In this document: piece after piece, positions 13,060 to 20,358 of the stretch
How positions within the stretch are numbered: position 1 is the first letter of the stretch
Layout of the letters: every line of letters starts with the position of its first letter
From: an uncultured Pseudomonas sp.
GTDB lineage: Bacteria; Pseudomonadota; Gammaproteobacteria; Pseudomonadales; Pseudomonadaceae
Direction: 5' to 3'
NCBI RefSeq assembly: GCF_913774235.1
Contig: NZ_CAJYDW010000005.1
Coordinates: 310,001 to 374,000, forward strand
Length of the DNA: 64,000 nt
Made by a program: the position numbers and the translations under genes
Notes under the pieces: model-generated
The model's database searches: none
What the model was told of the DNA's origin: nothing
The model's input: the letters and a program-made list of their open reading frames with translations, nothing else

Positions 13060-13812
13060 TCAGGCGCTGGCCTGGTCGGCGAAGCTCAGTGCCTGCTGTA
13101 GCGCCGCCTGGCCCACCACCTCACCGATCACCAGGATCGCCGGGCTTTTCAGCTGGAAGAGGGCGGCGTCCACCTGCAGGTCCTGCAACGTCGAACGGCA
13201 TTCGCGTTGGCTGGGCAGGGAGGCGTTCTCGATCATGGCCACCGGGGTGGTCAGTGCCAGGCCGCCTTCCAGCAGGCCCTGCTGGATTTCGGTCAGGCGG
13301 GCCACGCCCATGTAGACCACCAGGGTGGTACCGGTCGCCGCCAGGGCGGGCCAGTTGGGTACGCTGTCGTCCTGGGTGTGGGCGGTGACCAGGGTCACGC
13401 CGCGGGCCACGCCTCTCAGGGTCAAGGAGATGCCGCAGGCGGTGGCACCGGCCAGGCCGGCGGTGATGCCGTTGACGATTTCGCTCTGCACGCCACTGGC
13501 GGCCAGCCATTCGGCTTCCTCGCCAGCGCGACCGAAGATGCAGGGATCACCGCCCTTGAGCCGGGCCACGCAGCGACCCTGGCGGGCGTAGCGCAGCATC
13601 AGGCGATGAATAAAGGCCTGGGGTGTGGAGCGGCAGCCGCCTCTCTTGCCCACGCGGATCACCCGGGCACTGGGGCAGTGTTCGAGGACGGCCGGATTGA
13701 CCAGGTCGTCGATCATCACCACCTCGGCCTCGCCCAGGGCGCGCACGGCCTTGAGGGTGAGCAGTTCGGGATCGCCAGGGCCGGCGCCGATCAACCAGAC
13801 TTTCCCGCTCAT
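13060..13812 (-). CDS. cobA: Uroporphyrinogen-III C-methyltransferase
   Basis: This 250-residue SUMT enzyme adds two methyl groups from SAM to uroporphyrinogen III to make precorrin-2, the precursor of siroheme needed by assimilatory nitrite and sulfite reductases. Visible motifs are VWLIGAGPGDPELLTLKA at the N-terminus, RVGKRGG, RLKGGDPCIFGRAGEE (SAM binding) and GITAGLAGAT. It is the stand-alone SUMT type, without the CysG dehydrogenase/chelatase half. ATG at 13812 with GAGAGG upstream. It follows nrtD but is separated from it by a strong terminator and by its own attenuator leader, so it is probably nitrate-inducible through NasR rather than part of the nrt transcript. Confidence 0.95.
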   Translation of the reverse strand: MSGKVWLIGAGPGDPELLTLKAVRALGEAEVVMIDDLVNPAVLEHCPSARVIRVGKRGGCRSTPQAFIHRLMLRYARQGRCVARLKGGDPCIFGRAGEEAEWLAASGVQSEIVNGITAGLAGATACGISLTLRGVARGVTLVTAHTQDDSVPNWPALAATGTTLVVYMGVARLTEIQQGLLEGGLALTTPVAMIENASLPSQRECRSTLQDLQVDAALFQLKSPAILVIGEVVGQAALQQALSFADQASA

Positions 13813-13849: not shown

Positions 13850-13910
13850 AAAAAAAAGGCGTCCCGCTGCATGCAGCTGGGACGCCTTTGTCCTGGAGCG
13901 CCTTTCCTCG
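13850..13910 (-). promoter_or_regulatory. sumT leader attenuator with ANTAR-type hexaloop hairpin
   Basis: Read on the minus strand, GGAC-AAAGGC-GTCC (13893 to 13880) forms a 4-bp hairpin with a six-base loop that has A at position 1 and G at position 4, the ANTAR recognition pattern. Its 3' arm is shared with the 5' arm of a terminator hairpin (GGCGTCCC...GGGACGCC, 13858-13886, with an extra inner stem), which is followed by eight T. The two folds exclude each other. A second AAAGGC (13905 to 13900), flanked by GAG/CTC, lies two bases upstream of the first hairpin and could be the partner hairpin, although its loop-closing pair is mismatched. Predicted effector: NasR bound to nitrate or nitrite. 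Confidence 0.72.
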
Positions 13911-14006
13911 CCGTTGAAGAAAGACCTATGTTGTCTGGGGATTTGCAGGCTTCGTGCCAGTTGTCCAGGCGAGTGAAACCGCGGCTTTACGCGCGCAGTG
14001 TTCCAC

Positions 14007-14049
14007 AAAATCGCCCCGTTTCGAGGCAAGGCGCCTCGAAACGGGGCGA
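14007..14049 (-). terminator. Rho-independent terminator after nrtD
   Basis: A perfect 17-bp inverted repeat (14011-14027 with 14033-14049) encloses a 5-base loop and is followed on the minus strand by TTTT. It begins 4 bases after the nrtD stop and should end the nrtABD transcript before the sumT leader. Confidence 0.85.
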
Positions 14050-14053
14050 ATCC

Positions 14054-14854
14054 TCAGGCCACGGCGCCGGGGTGGCTGTGCTTCTCGTAGAGGAAGCTCA
14101 GCACCGCGTGGCGATAGCCGTTGTAGCGCGGATCATCGACCAGGGTGATGCGATCGCGCGGCCGCGGCAGATCGATGGTGAGGATCTCGCCGATGGTGGC
14201 CGCCGGGCCGTTGGTCATCATGACGATGCGGTCCGAGAGGAGTACCGCCTCGTCCACGTCGTGGGTGATCATCATCACGGTGTTGCACAATTCACTCTGG
14301 ATGCGCATCACCTCGTCCTGCAAATGCGCCCGGGTGAGGGCGTCCAGGGCGCCGAAGGGCTCGTCCAGCAGCAGCACCTTGGGCTCCATGGCCAGGGCGC
14401 GGGCGATGCCGACCCGTTGCTTCATGCCGCCGGAAATCTCGCTGGGCCGCTTGTGCAGGGCATGGCTCATGTTGACCATTTCCAGGTTGTGCAGCGTCCA
14501 GGCCTGGCGCTCGGCCTTGCTCTTGGTGCCCTTGAACACCTTGTCCACCGCCAGGGCGACGTTCTCGTAGACCGTCAGCCAGGGCAGCAGCGAATGGTTC
14601 TGGAACACCAGGCTGCGCTCCGGACCGGGACCGCGGACCTCGCGGTTCTCCAGCAGGATCGAGCCGGAGGTGGGTTCGATCAGGCCGGCGACGATGTTGA
14701 GCACCGTCGACTTGCCGCAGCCGGAGTGGCCGATGATGGAGATGTACTCGCCGCGCTCGATCTTGAGGTTGACGTCGCGCAGCACCGTGGAGGTCATGCC
14801 GTTGCGGGTGAAGCTCTTGTCGACGTGCTCGATGCTCAGGTAGGGCTGGGCCAT
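14054..14854 (-). CDS. nrtD: Nitrate/nitrite ABC transporter ATP-binding subunit
   Basis: This is a 266-residue ABC ATPase. Walker A is GHSGCGKST (near residue 42), Q-loop VFQNHSLLPWLTVYENV, signature SGGMKQR, Walker B VLLLDEPFGALDALTR and H-loop MMITHDVDEA. The length and C-terminus (LPRPRDRITLVDDPRY) fit the NrtD/CmpD/SsuB class that powers uptake of nitrate, bicarbonate or sulfonate. The flanking NrtA-like binding protein and NasR point to nitrate/nitrite. It has no NrtC-type fused sensor domain. It is 12 bases downstream of nrtB and closes the nrtABD unit. Confidence 0.9.
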   Translation of the reverse strand: MAQPYLSIEHVDKSFTRNGMTSTVLRDVNLKIERGEYISIIGHSGCGKSTVLNIVAGLIEPTSGSILLENREVRGPGPERSLVFQNHSLLPWLTVYENVALAVDKVFKGTKSKAERQAWTLHNLEMVNMSHALHKRPSEISGGMKQRVGIARALAMEPKVLLLDEPFGALDALTRAHLQDEVMRIQSELCNTVMMITHDVDEAVLLSDRIVMMTNGPAATIGEILTIDLPRPRDRITLVDDPRYNGYRHAVLSFLYEKHSHPGAVA

Positions 14855-14866
14855 GGTGGGAATCCT

Positions 14867-15712
14867 TTAGTTCGCGGTGCCGCGGGTGACCAGGCGACCG
14901 ATGAGGGCCACCAGGCGGTCGAGCAGGAAGCCGATGACGCCGACGTAGACCAGCGCCAGGATGATGTCGCTGATGCGCGAGGCGTTCCAGGCATCCCAGA
15001 TGAAGAAGCCGATGCCCACGCCGCCGATCAGCATCTCGGCGGCGATGATGGCCAGCCACGACAGACCGACGCCGATGCGCAGGCCGGAGAAGATGTAGGG
15101 CGCCGCCGCCGGCAGCATGATCTTCTGGAAGTATTCCCAGCCGTTCAGGCGCAGCACCCGCGCCACGTTGCGGTAGTCCTCGGGGATGTTGCGGATGCCC
15201 ACCGAGGTATTGATGATGATCGGCCAGATGGCGGTGATGAAGATGACGAACAGCGCCGAGGGGTGGCTGTCCTTGAAGCCGGCCAGGGACAGCGGCAGCC
15301 AGGCCAGTGGCGGCACGGTGCGCAGTACCTGGAACAGCGGGTCGAGGCCGCGCATGGCCCAGGCCGACTGGCCCACCAGCACACCCAGGGCGATGCCCAC
15401 CACGGCGGCCATAAGGTAGCCGTAGGCGACGCGCTCGAGGCTGGCCAGCAGCTGCCAGGCCATGCCCACGTCGTTGCCGCCATTGTCATAGAAGGGCTGG
15501 GTGATCAGCTCCCAGGTGTCGCTGACCACCTGGCTCGGTGGCGGCAGGGCCGCGCCCGGGCGACTGCACAGCAACTGCCAGACGATCAGCAGCACGGCGC
15601 CCACCACCAGCGGGGGCAGGCCGTTGCGCAGCACCTGCTGGCCGAAGCGACGCAGACGGGTTTGCGGGCGAAAGGTCGCGAGGGCCTTGGGCGGCCGGGT
15701 ATGGGCGTTCAT
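14867..15712 (-). CDS. nrtB: Nitrate ABC transporter permease
   Basis: This 281-residue inner-membrane permease has about six helices. The EAA-type cytoplasmic loop is seen around NVARVLRLNGWEYFQKIMLPAAAPYIFSGLRIGVGLSWL. The N-terminal stretch ahead of the first helix (about 30 residues) is basic. ATG at 15712 is preceded by AGGAG; an in-frame GTG at 15721 overlaps that site and is less likely. The partners are the binding protein upstream (27 bases) and the ATPase downstream. Confidence 0.9.
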   Translation of the reverse strand: MNAHTRPPKALATFRPQTRLRRFGQQVLRNGLPPLVVGAVLLIVWQLLCSRPGAALPPPSQVVSDTWELITQPFYDNGGNDVGMAWQLLASLERVAYGYLMAAVVGIALGVLVGQSAWAMRGLDPLFQVLRTVPPLAWLPLSLAGFKDSHPSALFVIFITAIWPIIINTSVGIRNIPEDYRNVARVLRLNGWEYFQKIMLPAAAPYIFSGLRIGVGLSWLAIIAAEMLIGGVGIGFFIWDAWNASRISDIILALVYVGVIGFLLDRLVALIGRLVTRGTAN

Positions 15713-15739
15713 GGGCGGCACTCCTAGGGGATGGGGACG

Positions 15740-17065
15740 TCAGGCCTTGAGCGTCAGGCTAGCGAGATAGGCTTTGGGATCGGCGGGATCGAACACCTTG
15801 CCGTCGAAGAAGGTTTCGGTGCCGCGCGAGTTGCCGGTGGGGATGTCGCCGGCCGGGACGCTGATCGCCGCCGCCGCTTCGCGCCAGAGATCGGCGCGGT
15901 TGACCTTGGCGATCAGGCCTTGGGCATCCAGGTCACCGGGCAGATAGCCCCAACGCTGGTTCTCGGTGATGAACCAGAGGTCGTGGCTCTGGTAGGGGAA
16001 GGAGGCGTGTTCGCTCCAGAACTTCATCAGGTGCGGACTGTTCTGCACCACCCGGCCGTTGCCATAGTCGAAGGTGCCCTGCAGGCGGCCGACCACGTCT
16101 TCGGCGGGGGCACCGATCCAGCGGCGCTTGGCGCAGATCTCGGCCACCTTGGCCTTGTTGGCCGCAGCCTCGCAGTATTGCTGGGCTTCCAGCACCGCCT
16201 TGAGCAAGGCGACGGTGGCCTTGGGGTTGGCCTGGACGTAGTCACCACGCAGGGCCAGGGCCTTCTCCGGATGATTGGCCCAGAGCTCGCCGGTGGTCAG
16301 GGCGCTGTAGCCGATGTTCTGCTTGACCAGCTGGGCGTTCCAGGGCTCGCCCACGCAGAAGGCGTCCATGTTGCCCACCTTCATGTTGGCGACCATCTGC
16401 GCCGGCGGTACCACCAGGGTGGTGGTGTCCTGATTGGGATTGATGCCGTTGGCCGCCAGCCAGTAGCGAATCCACAGATCGTGGGTGCCGCCGGGGAAGG
16501 TCATGGCGGCCGAGGTCTTCTTGCCGGCGGCCTGGCGGGCGGCCAGGGCGCTCTTGAAGCCGCTGGCGTCGAGGCCGATCTTCTGGTCCTTGTAGTCGTT
16601 GGACAGCGAGATCCCCTGGCCATCGACGTTCAGCCGGGCCAGCAGCGCCATCGGCAGCGGCTGGCCGTTGGGGGTGATCTTGCCGGAGGCCAGGTGATAG
16701 ACCATCGGCGTGAGGATGTGCGCCCCGTCGATGCCATTGGCCGCCGAGCCCAACACCAGGTTGTCGCGGGTGGTGCCCCAGGAGGACTGCTTGAGCACCT
16801 CCACCTCGGTCATGCCGTACTTGGCGAACAGCCCCAGCTCGTCGGCGACGAACAGCGGCGCGGCATCGGTGAGGGCGATGAAACCGAGCTTGGCCTTGGG
16901 CGTCTCCACGGCGTCGCTGCCGGCTGCCCAGGCGGCGGACCTCAGGCCAGGCGGCAGTAGCGTGAGTGCGGCACCAGCGCCGAGCACACCGAGCGACTGC
17001 TTGAGGAAATTGCGGCGGGGGAGTCCGCGACCGGCCTGGTCATCGTTACGGGAGCTGTCGTCCAT
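15740..17065 (-). CDS. nrtA: Nitrate-binding protein, Tat-exported substrate-binding subunit
   Basis: This 441-residue protein has an N-terminal twin-arginine signal (RRNFLK at residues 17-22, then a hydrophobic stretch ending near SAAWAA) and an NMT1/NrtA-type periplasmic binding fold (KLGFIALTDAAPLFVADELGLFAKYGM, GGTHDLWIRYWLAANGINP, NMDAFCVGEPWNAQLVKQ). Family members bind nitrate and nitrite with sub-micromolar affinity and hand them to NrtB. The ATG at 17065 follows AAGGAT and a strong attenuator leader. An upstream in-frame start at 17137 would lie inside the terminator hairpin and is rejected. The C-terminal half includes repeated Ala-rich helices typical of the family. Confidence 0.92.
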   Translation of the reverse strand: MDDSSRNDDQAGRGLPRRNFLKQSLGVLGAGAALTLLPPGLRSAAWAAGSDAVETPKAKLGFIALTDAAPLFVADELGLFAKYGMTEVEVLKQSSWGTTRDNLVLGSAANGIDGAHILTPMVYHLASGKITPNGQPLPMALLARLNVDGQGISLSNDYKDQKIGLDASGFKSALAARQAAGKKTSAAMTFPGGTHDLWIRYWLAANGINPNQDTTTLVVPPAQMVANMKVGNMDAFCVGEPWNAQLVKQNIGYSALTTGELWANHPEKALALRGDYVQANPKATVALLKAVLEAQQYCEAAANKAKVAEICAKRRWIGAPAEDVVGRLQGTFDYGNGRVVQNSPHLMKFWSEHASFPYQSHDLWFITENQRWGYLPGDLDAQGLIAKVNRADLWREAAAAISVPAGDIPTGNSRGTETFFDGKVFDPADPKAYLASLTLKA

Positions 17066-17090
17066 CGTCCTATCCTTATTTCTCGGGCAC

Positions 17091-17174
17091 AAAAAAAGGC
17101 ATCCACTCTCGGCAGCTTTGGCTGCGAGCGTGGACACCTTCGTCCGGGGATTGCTGTGGGAGCGCCAGGCGCTC
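17091..17174 (-). promoter_or_regulatory. nrtA: nrtA leader attenuator (terminator plus alternative hairpin)
   Basis: The minus-strand terminator hairpin spans 17098-17138, a near-continuous stem with a CAAA loop, followed by seven T (17097 to 17091). It lies only about 26 bases before the nrtA start, so it acts in the leader and not after a gene. A 4-bp hairpin GGAC-GAAGGT-GTCC (17145 to 17132) shares bases with the 5' arm of the terminator, so the folds compete. A perfect stem GAGCGCC-GGCGCTC (17160-17174) lies upstream. The loop GAAGGT departs at position 1 from the ANTAR A1/G4 pattern. Control by the NasR encoded immediately upstream is inferred. Confidence 0.7.
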
Positions 17175-17306
17175 GACAGGACTTTTGCAGGGACTGTGCC
17201 AAGCCGGCAATCGCGGCCGATCCAGGCCCTTTACTGGTCTCGGGCGCACAGTCGCGGGGCGTTCTGGTGCCTGGGTGCGCCCTGGCGGCGCATGGGTAGT
17301 GTCGAC

Positions 17307-18551
17307 CTAGAGGTCCTGGCCGAGCAGTTGCCGGACCAGCTCGGGCAATGGCCGGCCGCTGCGCATCGCCAGCTGCTGCAAATGCTGGTGGGCGTCTGCC
17401 TCCGGCAGTTGCAGCTGTTGCATGAGTTGCTGCTTGGCCCGTTCCAGCAGCTTGCGCTCGACCAGGGAGCGACGGGTTTCCTGGAGTTCCGCCTCCACTT
17501 CGTGCAGGCGCCGGGTCTGCTCGTGCAACAACTCGAGGATGCCGGGCTGGCCTTCGCCCGGCCGGGCTTCTCCCAGCGGATTGGCGGTCAGGCTGAACAG
17601 TAGCGGCGTGCTCGGTTCGCGGTCCAGCTCGGCCAGGCGCCGGGACAGCTTGCGATGGCTATCCAGGTCGGCCTGGGCCTGGGCGATGCTCTTCGCACAG
17701 CGCGCGCGGAGTTCCAGTACCAGGTGCTGGGCGACCTCCTGCATGGCGTCCAGGCGACGGGTATTGAGTTCGAACCAGAGTTCGGCGAGCGCCGGCTCCA
17801 CTTGGGCGCTCGCCGAGGTGCGCTGGGCGACGCCGCGCAGCCGTTCGATCTGCTGCCGCGAGGCGCAGTCCTGCACCTCGTGCCAGAGGACCAGGGCCTG
17901 GGGATCGGCATGGTCGAGGAAGCCGGCGAAGCAGCGGGCCTGGCCACTGTCCAGGTCGTCGAGCCGGGCCAGCAGGACGGCATCGAAATGGCCCTGGGTG
18001 AAGCCGACCACTCCGGTCGCCCGGGCCTGGCCCGCCAGTTCCTTGCCCTGCATGAAGTTGAACAGCGCCACCAGGGCCCGGCTGAGACCGGGGTCGCTCG
18101 CCGTGTCGGCAGCCTCGAAGATGACCGCCAGCAAGCCACCGATCAGGTGCGAAAAGGCCGCGGTGGCCTCTTCCATTCCCAGGCGCCGGTCGAGAATGCC
18201 GCGCCTAAGGCCGGGCAAGCCATCGAGCAGATGCAGGACGCAGGCGATGCGGTTGAGTAGACGCGGGCGATCCTGGGCCACGCTGGCGTCGAGGGTGTCC
18301 AGGCACTCGCGCAGACGCGTCTCGCTGCTGCGCGCCGTCGCCGAATGCTGCTCCAGGGCGCTGCGATAGCGGTCGCTGCCTGTCCCCAGCAGGATATTGC
18401 TGAAGCCGCGTTCGCGTTGCAGGTCATGTATCAGCGCGCTGGCGCCCTCCACCAGTTCGCAGGTCAGGGTGAGACCCTCCAGTTGCTGCAATTCGCAACG
18501 GCGGGCCGCCAGCATGAAACGCAGGGCAGGGGGCATCTGGCGATCGGGCAT
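17307..18551 (-). CDS. nasR: Nitrate-responsive antiterminator NasR (NIT + ANTAR)
   Basis: This is a 414-residue cytoplasmic regulator. Residues from about 35 to 290 form the NIT nitrate/nitrite-sensing domain (ALIHDLQRERGFSNILLGTGSDRYRSAL at its start, with the QRERG motif, and VGFTQGHFDAVL later). A coiled-coil linker follows (HEQTRRLHEVEAELQETRRSL). The last 55 or so residues are an ANTAR RNA-binding domain (LVERKLLERAKQQLMQQ...EADAHQHLQQLAMRSG). In Klebsiella, NasR binds leader RNA and blocks termination when nitrate is present. It lies 63 bases after the kinase-phosphatase gene and directly ahead of the nrtA leader. The start is uncertain: no clear ribosome binding site, and an in-frame TTG exists at 18581. 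Confidence 0.9.
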   Translation of the reverse strand: MPDRQMPPALRFMLAARRCELQQLEGLTLTCELVEGASALIHDLQRERGFSNILLGTGSDRYRSALEQHSATARSSETRLRECLDTLDASVAQDRPRLLNRIACVLHLLDGLPGLRRGILDRRLGMEEATAAFSHLIGGLLAVIFEAADTASDPGLSRALVALFNFMQGKELAGQARATGVVGFTQGHFDAVLLARLDDLDSGQARCFAGFLDHADPQALVLWHEVQDCASRQQIERLRGVAQRTSASAQVEPALAELWFELNTRRLDAMQEVAQHLVLELRARCAKSIAQAQADLDSHRKLSRRLAELDREPSTPLLFSLTANPLGEARPGEGQPGILELLHEQTRRLHEVEAELQETRRSLVERKLLERAKQQLMQQLQLPEADAHQHLQQLAMRSGRPLPELVRQLLGQDL

Positions 18552-18614
18552 GGCGCAAGACTCGAACAGGAGGCTGGCCAATGGCCTGCAAAAGCTGCTC
18601 CAGCCTGGGCTATC

Positions 18615-20285
18615 TCACGGGCGATAGAGCCACAGCAGCCCGAGCGCCAGATTGCCGAGCAGCGACAGGGCGGCGACCACCTGCCAGGTGCGCAGCGGAT
18701 CGCGGTGCAGCAGCGGCAGGGCGCGGGCCGCGGGTTGCCGCTCGCCCTGTTCCAGCCGCAGCAGGGCTTCCTCGGCGGTCTCGAACCGCTCCTTTGGGTC
18801 GACCGCCACGGCGCGCTGTAGCCAGTCCTCCAGCCAGGCTGGCGCATCGGGGCGCCGCCGCAACACGCTGGCGGGGGTGCCGAAGCGCGGTCGCTGGAAA
18901 GGCTCGACCTCGCCATAGGGATAGCTGCCGGTGAGCAGCTCGTAGAGGGTCACGCCGGCGGCATAGAGATCCTGGGCCGGGCTCGGGGCGGCGCCCTCGA
19001 AGGACTCGGGGGCCCGATAGCTCGGGGTGCCGGGAGTGTCCTGCAGGTCCTGGGACAGCTGGGGACAGTAGGCCAGGCCGAAGTCCAGCAGGCGCAATTC
19101 GCCATCCTGGCCGCGGTGCAGGTTGTCCGGCTTGATGTCGCGGTGGAGGATGTTGCGCCGGTGCAACTGGCCGAGGGCACGCAAGAGGCGGGAGGCGACA
19201 TCCAGCCAGTCGGCCAGCGCCAGCGGGCCTTCGCTGCGCAGCTGCTGCGCCAGGGTGCGGCCGGAGTATTCCCGTTGCACGAAGTAGAGATGCGCTCGCC
19301 GTGGCAACGGATGCACCTCGACGAAGGCGCGCCCGGCCACACGGCGCAGGAACCATTCCTCCATCAGCAAGGCATGGCCGGCGAGGGTATCGTGCTGCAG
19401 ATTGGCCGGCAGCGTCTTGAGCAGCCAGGAGCGACCGCTGTCGTCCTGGACTCGGTAGAGCAGCGACTGGCGCGATTCGCCCAGCCGCTCCAGGACCTTC
19501 CAGCCCTCGAAATGCTGGCCGGGCTTGAGGGCGGGTAGCGGCGGCCAGGTGTCGGCGCTGGCCAGGGTATCGGCCAGGGACACGTCGGGCAGCCGGTCGA
19601 CGCGTACCAGCAGGGCGCTGGCGTTGTCCTGGCCACCGGCATGCAGGGCCCCGGCCACCAGCGCCTGGACGGTAGCGTCCGGGTCGCTCACGCCATCGGC
19701 GAGGATGCGCCTCATGCTGTCCTCGCCCAGGGCGGCCCAGACGCCATCGCTCACCAGCAGCAGGGTCTCGCCGGCTTCCAGTTCGCCTTCGCGGAAGTCC
19801 ACCACCAGGTGAGTCTCCAGCCCCAGGGCCCTGGTCAGCACATGCTGCATACCGGTCTGCTGCCAGACATGATCGACGGTGAGACAGGTCAGCTTGCCGC
19901 CGTGCCAGCGATAGGCACGGCAATCGCCGACATGGGCCAGGGTGAAGCGCCGACCGCGGATCACCAGGGCGGTGAGGGTGGTCAGCAGCGGCTGTCCGTT
20001 GCCGGCGGCCTGCAACCAGCGATTCTGCGCCAGCAGCAACCGTTCCAGGGCCTGGGCCACCGGCCAGGTTTCCGGGGTGGAATAGTAGTCCTGGGCCAGG
20101 GCCTGCAGGGTGGCGCGGGCGGCCAGGCCACCGTCCGGGCAACCGCTGACGCCATCGGCCAAGGCGAACAGATGCCCCTTGGTCGCCGCTAGCGCCGCAC
20201 TGGGCTGAACGCTGCGCAGGGCATCCTGGTTTTCCTTGCGCGGGCCGGTCGCGGTGGCTTCGGCGGTGACGAGTTCTAGGGGCAT
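18615..20285 (-). CDS. PP2C phosphatase - Ser/Thr kinase fusion with C-terminal membrane anchor
   Basis: This 556-residue protein combines three parts. Residues about 5-240 are a PP2C phosphatase (RKENQDA, FALADGVSGCPDGG, LAHVGDCRAYRW, LLLVSDGVW, GGQDNASALLV, all metal-binding Asp present). Residues about 260-520 are a Hanks-type kinase (WLLKTL with the VAIK lysine, HRDIKPDN at 381-388, LLDFGLAY, SYRAPES, DLYAAGVTLYELLTG). The last 24 residues are a membrane helix (VVAALSLLGNLALGLLWLY). The glycine-rich loop is poor (LGESRQSLL). P. aeruginosa has a comparable kinase gene, PA1782, inside its nitrate-assimilation locus, so a role in nitrate or nitrite use is likely. Its substrates are unknown. 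The ribosome binding site is weak. Confidence 0.88.
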   Translation of the reverse strand: MPLELVTAEATATGPRKENQDALRSVQPSAALAATKGHLFALADGVSGCPDGGLAARATLQALAQDYYSTPETWPVAQALERLLLAQNRWLQAAGNGQPLLTTLTALVIRGRRFTLAHVGDCRAYRWHGGKLTCLTVDHVWQQTGMQHVLTRALGLETHLVVDFREGELEAGETLLLVSDGVWAALGEDSMRRILADGVSDPDATVQALVAGALHAGGQDNASALLVRVDRLPDVSLADTLASADTWPPLPALKPGQHFEGWKVLERLGESRQSLLYRVQDDSGRSWLLKTLPANLQHDTLAGHALLMEEWFLRRVAGRAFVEVHPLPRRAHLYFVQREYSGRTLAQQLRSEGPLALADWLDVASRLLRALGQLHRRNILHRDIKPDNLHRGQDGELRLLDFGLAYCPQLSQDLQDTPGTPSYRAPESFEGAAPSPAQDLYAAGVTLYELLTGSYPYGEVEPFQRPRFGTPASVLRRRPDAPAWLEDWLQRAVAVDPKERFETAEEALLRLEQGERQPAARALPLLHRDPLRTWQVVAALSLLGNLALGLLWLYRP

Positions 20286-20358
20286 GGGCGGGGCGCCGAA
20301 GAGAGTGGATACAAGGCGATGCAAAAGCGATACCCGTCGTCCAGGCGTCCCGCCCCCA

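Follow-up and report, generated by a model that had tools for sequence, protein, structure and literature searches.

In Pseudomonas putida and P. aeruginosa, NasT reads the leader of nirBD, a case described as NalA antitermination, with NtrC and sigma54 acting at the promoter (PMC12830290). Deletion of nasT in P. putida leaves no growth on nitrate, and a like effect in P. aeruginosa is cited in the same study (PMC7261876). Here we analyse two leaders, one before the siroheme gene sumT and one before the nitrate-uptake gene nrtA, on the minus strand of a 64,000-nucleotide stretch of NZ_CAJYDW010000005.1 (the window), the source genome of which belongs to the Pseudomonas oryzihabitans group. An initial annotation made from the letters of this stretch had proposed that both genes are under the ANTAR protein NasR. 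We consider it likely instead that the sumT leader is an orthologue of the Pseudomonas nalA/P11 leader, read by NasT and left on sumT after the loss of intervening genes, this being the best explanation of the evidence as a whole. The sumT leader has the following parts:

13850..13889, minus strand: intrinsic terminator, assigned by sequence, folding at -25.4 kcal/mol and lying inside the matches to Rfam P11 and to our leader model R1
13880..13893, minus strand: P2 antiterminator hairpin, GGAC-AAAGGC-GTCC, overlapping the 5' arm of the terminator
13900..13925, minus strand: P1 hairpin, GTCTTTCTTC-AACGGC-GAGGAAAGGC, folding at -11.5 kcal/mol
13944..13959, minus strand: sigma54-type -24/-12 promoter of sumT, TGGCACGAAGCCTGCA, in which TGGCA and TGC do not vary across the 30 aligned leaders, these having been cut to begin at this motif

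Both hexaloops, AACGGC in P1 (13915-13910) and AAAGGC in P2, carry A at position 1 and G at position 4 (A1 and G4) and are closed by a C:G pair, which is the dual-hexaloop arrangement of ANTAR leaders. The initial annotation had correctly described intrinsic terminators before sumT and nrtA, a GGAC-hexaloop-GTCC hairpin overlapping each 5' arm, and the A1 and G4 of the sumT loop AAAGGC; we place the terminators at 13889-13850 and 17140-17091 and the hairpins at 13893-13880 and 17145-17132. The second AAAGGC that it reported just upstream exists (13905-13900), but its candidacy as the P1 loop was rejected, as it pairs as the 3' arm of P1, the loop of which is AACGGC. By coordinates and folds, P2 and the sumT terminator are mutually exclusive. 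The terminator folds far more stably than P2 in both leaders (-25.4 versus -4.0 kcal/mol for sumT, -29.0 versus -4.0 kcal/mol for nrtA), and P2 would therefore need help to win. A scan of both strands for terminators (stem of 8, T5) gave 8 places when each register was counted separately, and among the hexaloops overlapping these just one, that of sumT, has A1 and G4; it was seen in two registers. A simple terminator scan calibrated for short loops listed neither leader and returned 3 terminators versus 3.2 in shuffles. A sigma70 scan, which does not cover sigma54, found no promoter; the sigma54-type promoters before both genes, assigned by consensus, were absent from the initial annotation.

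Rfam P11 (RF00625) matches the sumT leader at E=1e-9 (53.2 bits) in a 5-kb search and at E=2.5e-10 in a search of its own genome. We class the leader as a P11 homologue on E-value and synteny rather than on a full family match. At gathering thresholds no Rfam family matched anywhere in the window, and narK RNA (RF03032) matched the leader weakly (30 bits against a gathering score of 43, E=0.0078). Across 57 genomes P11 exceeded its gathering score in 15, the source genome included, and it was found at E<=1 in all 13 genomes of the source genus (the P. oryzihabitans group), each of which has the leader before sumT. Judging from the position before nirB, Rfam P11 and nalA are probably one and the same leader. 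We aligned 30 leaders (13 from sumT, 3 from nirB and 14 from the P11 search), in which A1 and G4 of the P1 loop and the P2 loop AAAGGC are invariant; the set was selected by its AAAGGC P2, and only the P1 loop is thus an independent test. However, AAAGGC was also the P2 loop in 15 of 15 leaders found by Rfam P11 and scanned without that motif. Over P1 and P2 together, 89.8% of cells are paired (P1, 85.7%, with changes on both sides in 8 of 10 pairs; P2, 100%, with such changes in 2 of 4). The covariation score and the number of double-change cells were reached in none of 500 shuffles. Two of the five measures, how many pairs changed and how many pair types occurred, were reached in 2 of 500 shuffles, and slid versions of the pairing all scored far lower than the true register. 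Relatives thus keep the structure of the leader through compensatory changes, as judged by shuffles that ignore relatedness.

The position of the leader points to its origin. In one relative (G019) the gene order is nasS-nasT-narK-kinase-leader-nirB-nasA-sumT, so that the P11 leader before nirB directly follows the kinase gene, as does the sumT leader in G002 and G003; in eight genus genomes nasR-nrtABC intervenes. A PP2C/kinase fusion gene stands beside the leader-sumT locus in all 22 annotated sumT loci (19 + 3; the window, L035-L052 and L206-L208). To survey the family, 89 Pseudomonadaceae genomes were searched with SumT and with R1, a model with rough E-values that was trained on the 30 leaders including that of the window; it is therefore not independent for training leaders, some from genomes in this survey, whereas Rfam P11 is. 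SumT was found at E<=1e-90 in 61 genomes; matches above this value, and R1 matches above 1e-6, were left out, and over 40 genomes the stricter filters miss weak matches. Within these bounds a P11-type leader lies upstream of sumT on the same strand in 59 of 61 genomes, the two others having no R1 match (G101) or one on another contig (G112). The distance from leader to gene is 5.5-6.2 kb in 36 genomes, with nirB and nasA between in the five read (G015, G019, G020, G026, G031); 4.0-4.3 kb in eight, with a NirB N-terminal-like gene and nasA between in the two read (G025, G070); and about 1.17 kb in five of genus g11, with a NirB N-terminal-like gene (residues 1-329) alone before sumT in the one read (G022, L207), the other four sharing its gap. 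In ten genomes the leader is directly before sumT, nine of these being of the source genus and one (G095) of another.

Since a leader lies upstream of sumT in nearly all the family genomes surveyed that have this sumT, it is probably no new member of the regulon, and the intervening genes were probably lost. The initial annotation had seen cofactor supply as a new extension of the regulon, a view that does not hold against this distribution, nor against the title of a 2012 paper by Romeo, which includes cobA in an operon of P. aeruginosa under antitermination control, nirBD-PA1779-cobA; siroheme supply would on that account already be a known target. In the ten P. oryzihabitans-type genomes (G000, the source genome, and G002, G003 and G005-G011), nirB is not the next gene after the sumT leader, and neither nirB nor nasA was found in 20 kb around sumT. 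Each has one nirB over the cut-off elsewhere, which is divergent from a nasA-flavoprotein fusion where read (G000, G002, G095). This nirB is 96% (G002) and 84% (G095) identical to that of the source genome, versus 36-39% for nirB of the old locus. We infer that the old nirB and nasA were replaced and lost, which would have left the leader on sumT, and that the rearrangement probably ran in this direction.

With regard to the regulator, NasT with an adjacent NasS is encoded in all 13 genus genomes (ANTAR search and tblastn on the loci), whereas NasR is encoded in 8 (G000, G005-G011). The sumT leader is thus not confined to genomes with NasR, and since five genomes have the leader and no NasR, NasR is not required there. 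In G002 and G003, NasT is the sole ANTAR match. G001, G004 and G012 each encode a second ANTAR protein, and G011 a third one, none of which matches NasT or NasR at E<=1e-10. On this co-occurrence NasT is the likelier reader of the leader, and most likely it is NasT freed from NasS that reads it. Of the initial annotation, the membership of sumT in a nitrate-assimilation regulon is supported, but NasR as common regulator of nrtA and sumT is not, given the P11/nalA type of the sumT leader and its presence in the 5 of 13 genomes without NasR.

Several observations weigh against our explanation. The P11 score of the leader lies under the gathering score (53.2 versus 70 bits). In the source genome no NtrC-like dyad of at least 9/12 was found in the 320 bp up to the sumT promoter, and among the other 12 genus genomes, where a short stretch within the leader cut was scanned, only G003 has such a site. 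The spacing between P1 and P2 is short in the ten P. oryzihabitans-type leaders, at 13-14 nt versus 39-43 nt in G001, G004 and G012 (the count runs up to P2 from the first two 3' pairs in P1 and takes in the rest of the P1 arm), and the length of the linker between hairpins matters for EutV, according to PMC8934654. The locus in G004 and G012 carries separate leaders for nirB and for sumT, as does that in G001, where the nirB frame is shortened and a full nirB lies elsewhere; leader duplication or gain is therefore needed besides loss. Finally, four of 65 nasR-nrtA leaders, none of them from Pseudomonadaceae, share the P2 loop AAAGGC. The type of loop is thus not enough by itself to rule out NasR, and canonical hexaloops could be bound by NasR as well as by NasT.

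This last point bears on two alternatives. In the first, NasR is the antiterminator for nrtA and sumT alike, and NasT acts on other leaders. This would fit the position of nasR, which shares a cluster with the sumT leader and ends 3.3 kb upstream of it, the four shared loops, and the preference of Klebsiella oxytoca NasR for A1/G4 hexaloops with a C:G closing pair (PMC7496416), such as the sumT leader has. We regard it as improbable in view of the five genomes that have the leader without NasR, and of the different loop (G1, 8/8) and missing canonical P1 in the nasR-linked leader of the P. oryzihabitans group. A joint action of NasT and NasR on sumT, with NasR as a second nitrate input in the eight genomes that have it, seems unlikely, but less easily dismissed: the source genome encodes both ANTAR proteins, and hexaloops of one kind are recognised by the two families, whereas P11-type and nasR-linked leaders differ in loop type within Pseudomonadaceae. 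In NasR of the source genome, moreover, EutV Tyr164, Arg168 and Arg177 correspond to His, Gln and Pro. This last argument is weak because AmiR has His, Ser and Pro there and because NasT of the same genome departs from EutV as well (Gln for Lys147, Gln for Arg175 and Lys for Arg177). These positions come from our own mapping onto an alignment to 6WSH/6WW6, with the contacts taken from PMC8934654. The reading of the sumT leader by NasT, within the P11-derived history set out above, is the one that we consider likely.

The gene cluster in which both leaders lie is as follows:

13060..13812, minus strand: sumT, uroporphyrinogen-III C-methyltransferase, start codon ATG at 13812-13810 (NF004790, 330 bits, and TIGR01469, 291 bits, both over cut-off)
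14007..14049, minus strand: terminator-like 18-pair stem after nrtC, separating nrtABC from sumT (terminator scan and fold)
14054..14854, minus strand: nrtC/D-type ATPase (TIGR01184, 350 bits, over cut-off)
14867..15721, minus strand: nrtB permease (TIGR01183, 323 bits, over cut-off)
15740..17065, minus strand: nrtA, nitrate-binding-type protein (PF13379, 337 bits)
17307..18581, minus strand: nasR, NIT-ANTAR, upstream of nrtA (NIT PF08376, 5e-45; ANTAR PF03861, 8e-12)
18615..20324, minus strand: PP2C/Ser-Thr kinase fusion, adjoining the leader locus (domain matches)

The name nrtA comes from the neighbourhood, since NCBIfam models gave none over cut-off for this gene. The domain matches bear out the initial annotation of a NIT-ANTAR NasR upstream of nrtA, and the nasR product also matches structure 4AKK, annotated as a nitrate regulatory protein (E=2e-42). 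In G009 the nrtA alignment is split over two adjacent frames (L046 11328-12652), possibly through a frameshift or an assembly error. The nrtA leader is made up of the following:

17091..17140, minus strand: intrinsic terminator, folding at -29.0 kcal/mol
17132..17145, minus strand: P2-like hairpin, GGAC-GAAGGT-GTCC, with G at loop position 1, overlapping the 5' arm of the terminator
17160..17174, minus strand: hairpin at the position of P1, not ANTAR-like (fold and leaders of relatives)
17186..17201, minus strand: sigma54-type promoter of nrtA, TGGCACAGTCCCTGCA (sequence)
17276..17292, minus strand: dyad TGCGCC-N5-GGCGCA upstream of nrtA, NtrC-like by consensus, with 9 or 10 of 12 positions matched in 8/8 nasR-bearing genus genomes, against a background in the window of 0.31 sites of at least 9 and 0.03 sites of at least 10 of 12 per 300 bp

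This leader is linked to NasR but atypical. R1, outside the training set of which it lies, finds it at E=2.7e-5 in its own genome, yet its P2 loop has G rather than A at position 1, keeping G4, and it has no canonical P1 (defined as a stem of at least 4 with C:G closing, A1 and G4, within 75 nt). For comparison we took the best 80 of 329 relatives' nasR loci, 65 of which have nrtA within 1.3 kb and were assessed. The overlapping hairpins proved to be kept in relatives, the sumT leader in 13 of 13 genus genomes and, at all 65 nasR-nrtA loci, a P2-type hairpin, GGRC-N6-GTCC with G4, the linkage of which to nasR holds across species. Position 1 of its loop is A in 59 loci and G in 6, all from P. 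oryzihabitans-group records (L092-L097: Pseudomonas sp. EpS/L25, P. oryzihabitans NBRC 102199, Pseudomonas sp. 102515, P. rhizoryzae RY24, P. oryzihabitans DE0602 and YY7). These six appear to be the same genomes as G005 and G007-G011, and are hence not independent of the genus set, in which G1 occurs in 8/8 nasR-bearing genomes.

A canonical P1 was found in 14 of the 65 leaders. Thirteen are outside Pseudomonadaceae, among the 14 loci of named organisms there, and four of these thirteen are the leaders that share the P2 loop of sumT; the fourteenth (L122) overlaps the promoter and is probably due to chance. Within the nasR-nrtA loci L098-L154, the Pseudomonadaceae leaders keep P2, with loops AACGGC, AACGGT or AACGAT outside the P. 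oryzihabitans group, but the scan saw no ANTAR-like P1 in them, L122 being doubtful. When 35 of 52 nasR-nrtA leaders, left after removal of near-identical sequences, were folded with RNAalifold, no common P1 emerged, the terminator only being returned, or P2 when the leaders were cut there. A GAGCG hairpin of the nrtA leader was considered as a mobile repetitive extragenic palindromic (REP) element and rejected, as a non-ANTAR hairpin occurs at a similar place in other Pseudomonas nasR-nrtA leaders.

NasR is most likely the regulator of nrtA, and this fits the gene neighbourhood. NasR of the source genome keeps the EutV contacts Arg142, Lys143, Lys149, Glu160 and Met172. At Tyr164, Arg168 and Arg177 it diverges as described; K. 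oxytoca NasR carries Trp, Arg and Arg there. Of 73 other NasR sequences, 67 have Arg at the position of Arg177, and at that of Arg168 there are 62 with Arg and 10 with Gln. A loss of RNA binding was rejected, since AmiR shares some of the unusual residues and K. oxytoca NasR likewise lacks Arg175. The diverged protein and leader may reflect altered specificity, recognition of a single hexaloop, or decay. Tentatively, we suggest a split regulon in which NasS-NasT would read the dual-hexaloop leaders (nirB, nasA, narK-type and sumT) and NasR a derived single-hexaloop nrtA leader, protein and RNA having diverged together, as marked by G at loop position 1 and by Gln and Pro at EutV Arg168 and Arg177. 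Were this true, Pseudomonas NasR leaders would be natural single-hexaloop antiterminators.

Decay of the nrtA leader in the P. oryzihabitans group, leading to constitutive termination or to read-through without NasR, would account for the diverged contact positions and for the absence in 8/8 genomes of A1, which together with G4 is important for NasR in vivo (PMC3369931). We find it rather doubtful: the GGAC/GTCC stem, G4, the terminator and the NtrC-like dyad are kept in 8/8 genomes, with loop variation, and a P1 that is not ANTAR-like is usual in Pseudomonadaceae nasR-nrtA leaders. Moreover, EutV makes no contact with A1 in its RNA-bound form, and binding to just one hexaloop is possible (PMC8934654). 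An nrtA leader that answers to NasR remains our preferred reading.

In the source genome (G000), R1 detects five leaders at E<=0.001, those of sumT (107 bits) and nirB (61), which were in its training set, and those of a narK-type transporter (40; our label for an MFS transporter behind the leader), the nasA fusion (38) and nrtA (36), which were not. The nirB and nasA genes (L089 4716-11742) are divergent, and nasA is joined to flavodoxin/FAD/NAD reductase domains. Each of the two genes has an ANTAR-type leader, and one NtrC-like site common to them lies between. A second SUMT is present in a CysG-length frame (467-772 aa) in all 13 genus genomes, and sumT therefore probably adds capacity rather than being the sole enzyme.

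From these results we infer transcription, the nitrate response and the pairing of proteins with leaders as follows. Under nitrogen limitation the sigma54 promoter would start a short sumT transcript that ends by default at the intrinsic terminator. An ANTAR protein released by nitrate, most likely NasT freed from NasS, would bind the P1 and P2 hexaloops and, by holding P2, block the terminator and allow read-through into sumT. The ancestral order would have been leader-nirB...nasA-sumT. Loss of the intervening genes from the locus would then have given leader-sumT in the P. oryzihabitans group, where other nirB and nasA genes lie elsewhere behind leaders of their own. The nasR-nrtABC genes, which separate the kinase gene from the leader in 8 of 13 genomes, have an atypical leader of their own that most likely answers to NasR.

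The siroheme gene that serves the nitrite reductase cofactor thus apparently stands behind its own RNA on/off switch. Across Pseudomonadaceae this methyltransferase stays behind a P11-type leader with several, two, one or no genes between, which suggests that operon erosion may leave a regulatory leader on the last gene. The P11 RNA family, labelled as a small RNA in Rfam, is placed by these results among terminated ANTAR leaders. For P. aeruginosa PA14, a small RNA P11, presumably the same as Rfam P11, is reported to affect the nirB operon as well as the avoidance behaviour of nematodes (PMC12080996, PMC10977744). If terminated, the sumT leader (13850-13933) would yield a small RNA of the P11 type. 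For their part, the nasR-linked leaders of nrtA, being atypical, offer a testable case for single-hexaloop ANTAR recognition.

The mechanism that we propose belongs to a known kind, and NasR, initially named for sumT, is probably the wrong regulator there. No description of a sumT-only ANTAR leader was found in the literature searched, which is weak evidence of novelty as most subscription papers lay outside the search. The closest described system is the nalA/P11 leader (RF00625) of nirBD-PA1779-cobA, a NasT target in P. aeruginosa and P. putida, which has the same sigma54-type promoter, P1 and P2 hexaloops and overlapping terminator, adjoins a kinase gene as the sumT leader does, and likewise has cobA/sumT downstream. 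However, here sumT directly follows the leader while nirB and nasA lie elsewhere with their own leaders, the P1-P2 spacing is shorter and the Rfam score is under the gathering score. The nrtA leader resembles the NasR-nasF leader of Klebsiella oxytoca in its NIT-ANTAR protein, its nitrate-uptake genes and its terminator with an overlapping hexaloop hairpin, but lacks A1 in P2 and a canonical P1. narK RNA (RF03032) is similar to the sumT leader to the extent of a weak match under its gathering score, and the EutV and AmiR leaders share the principle of dual-hexaloop antitermination while answering to other signals and controlling other genes.

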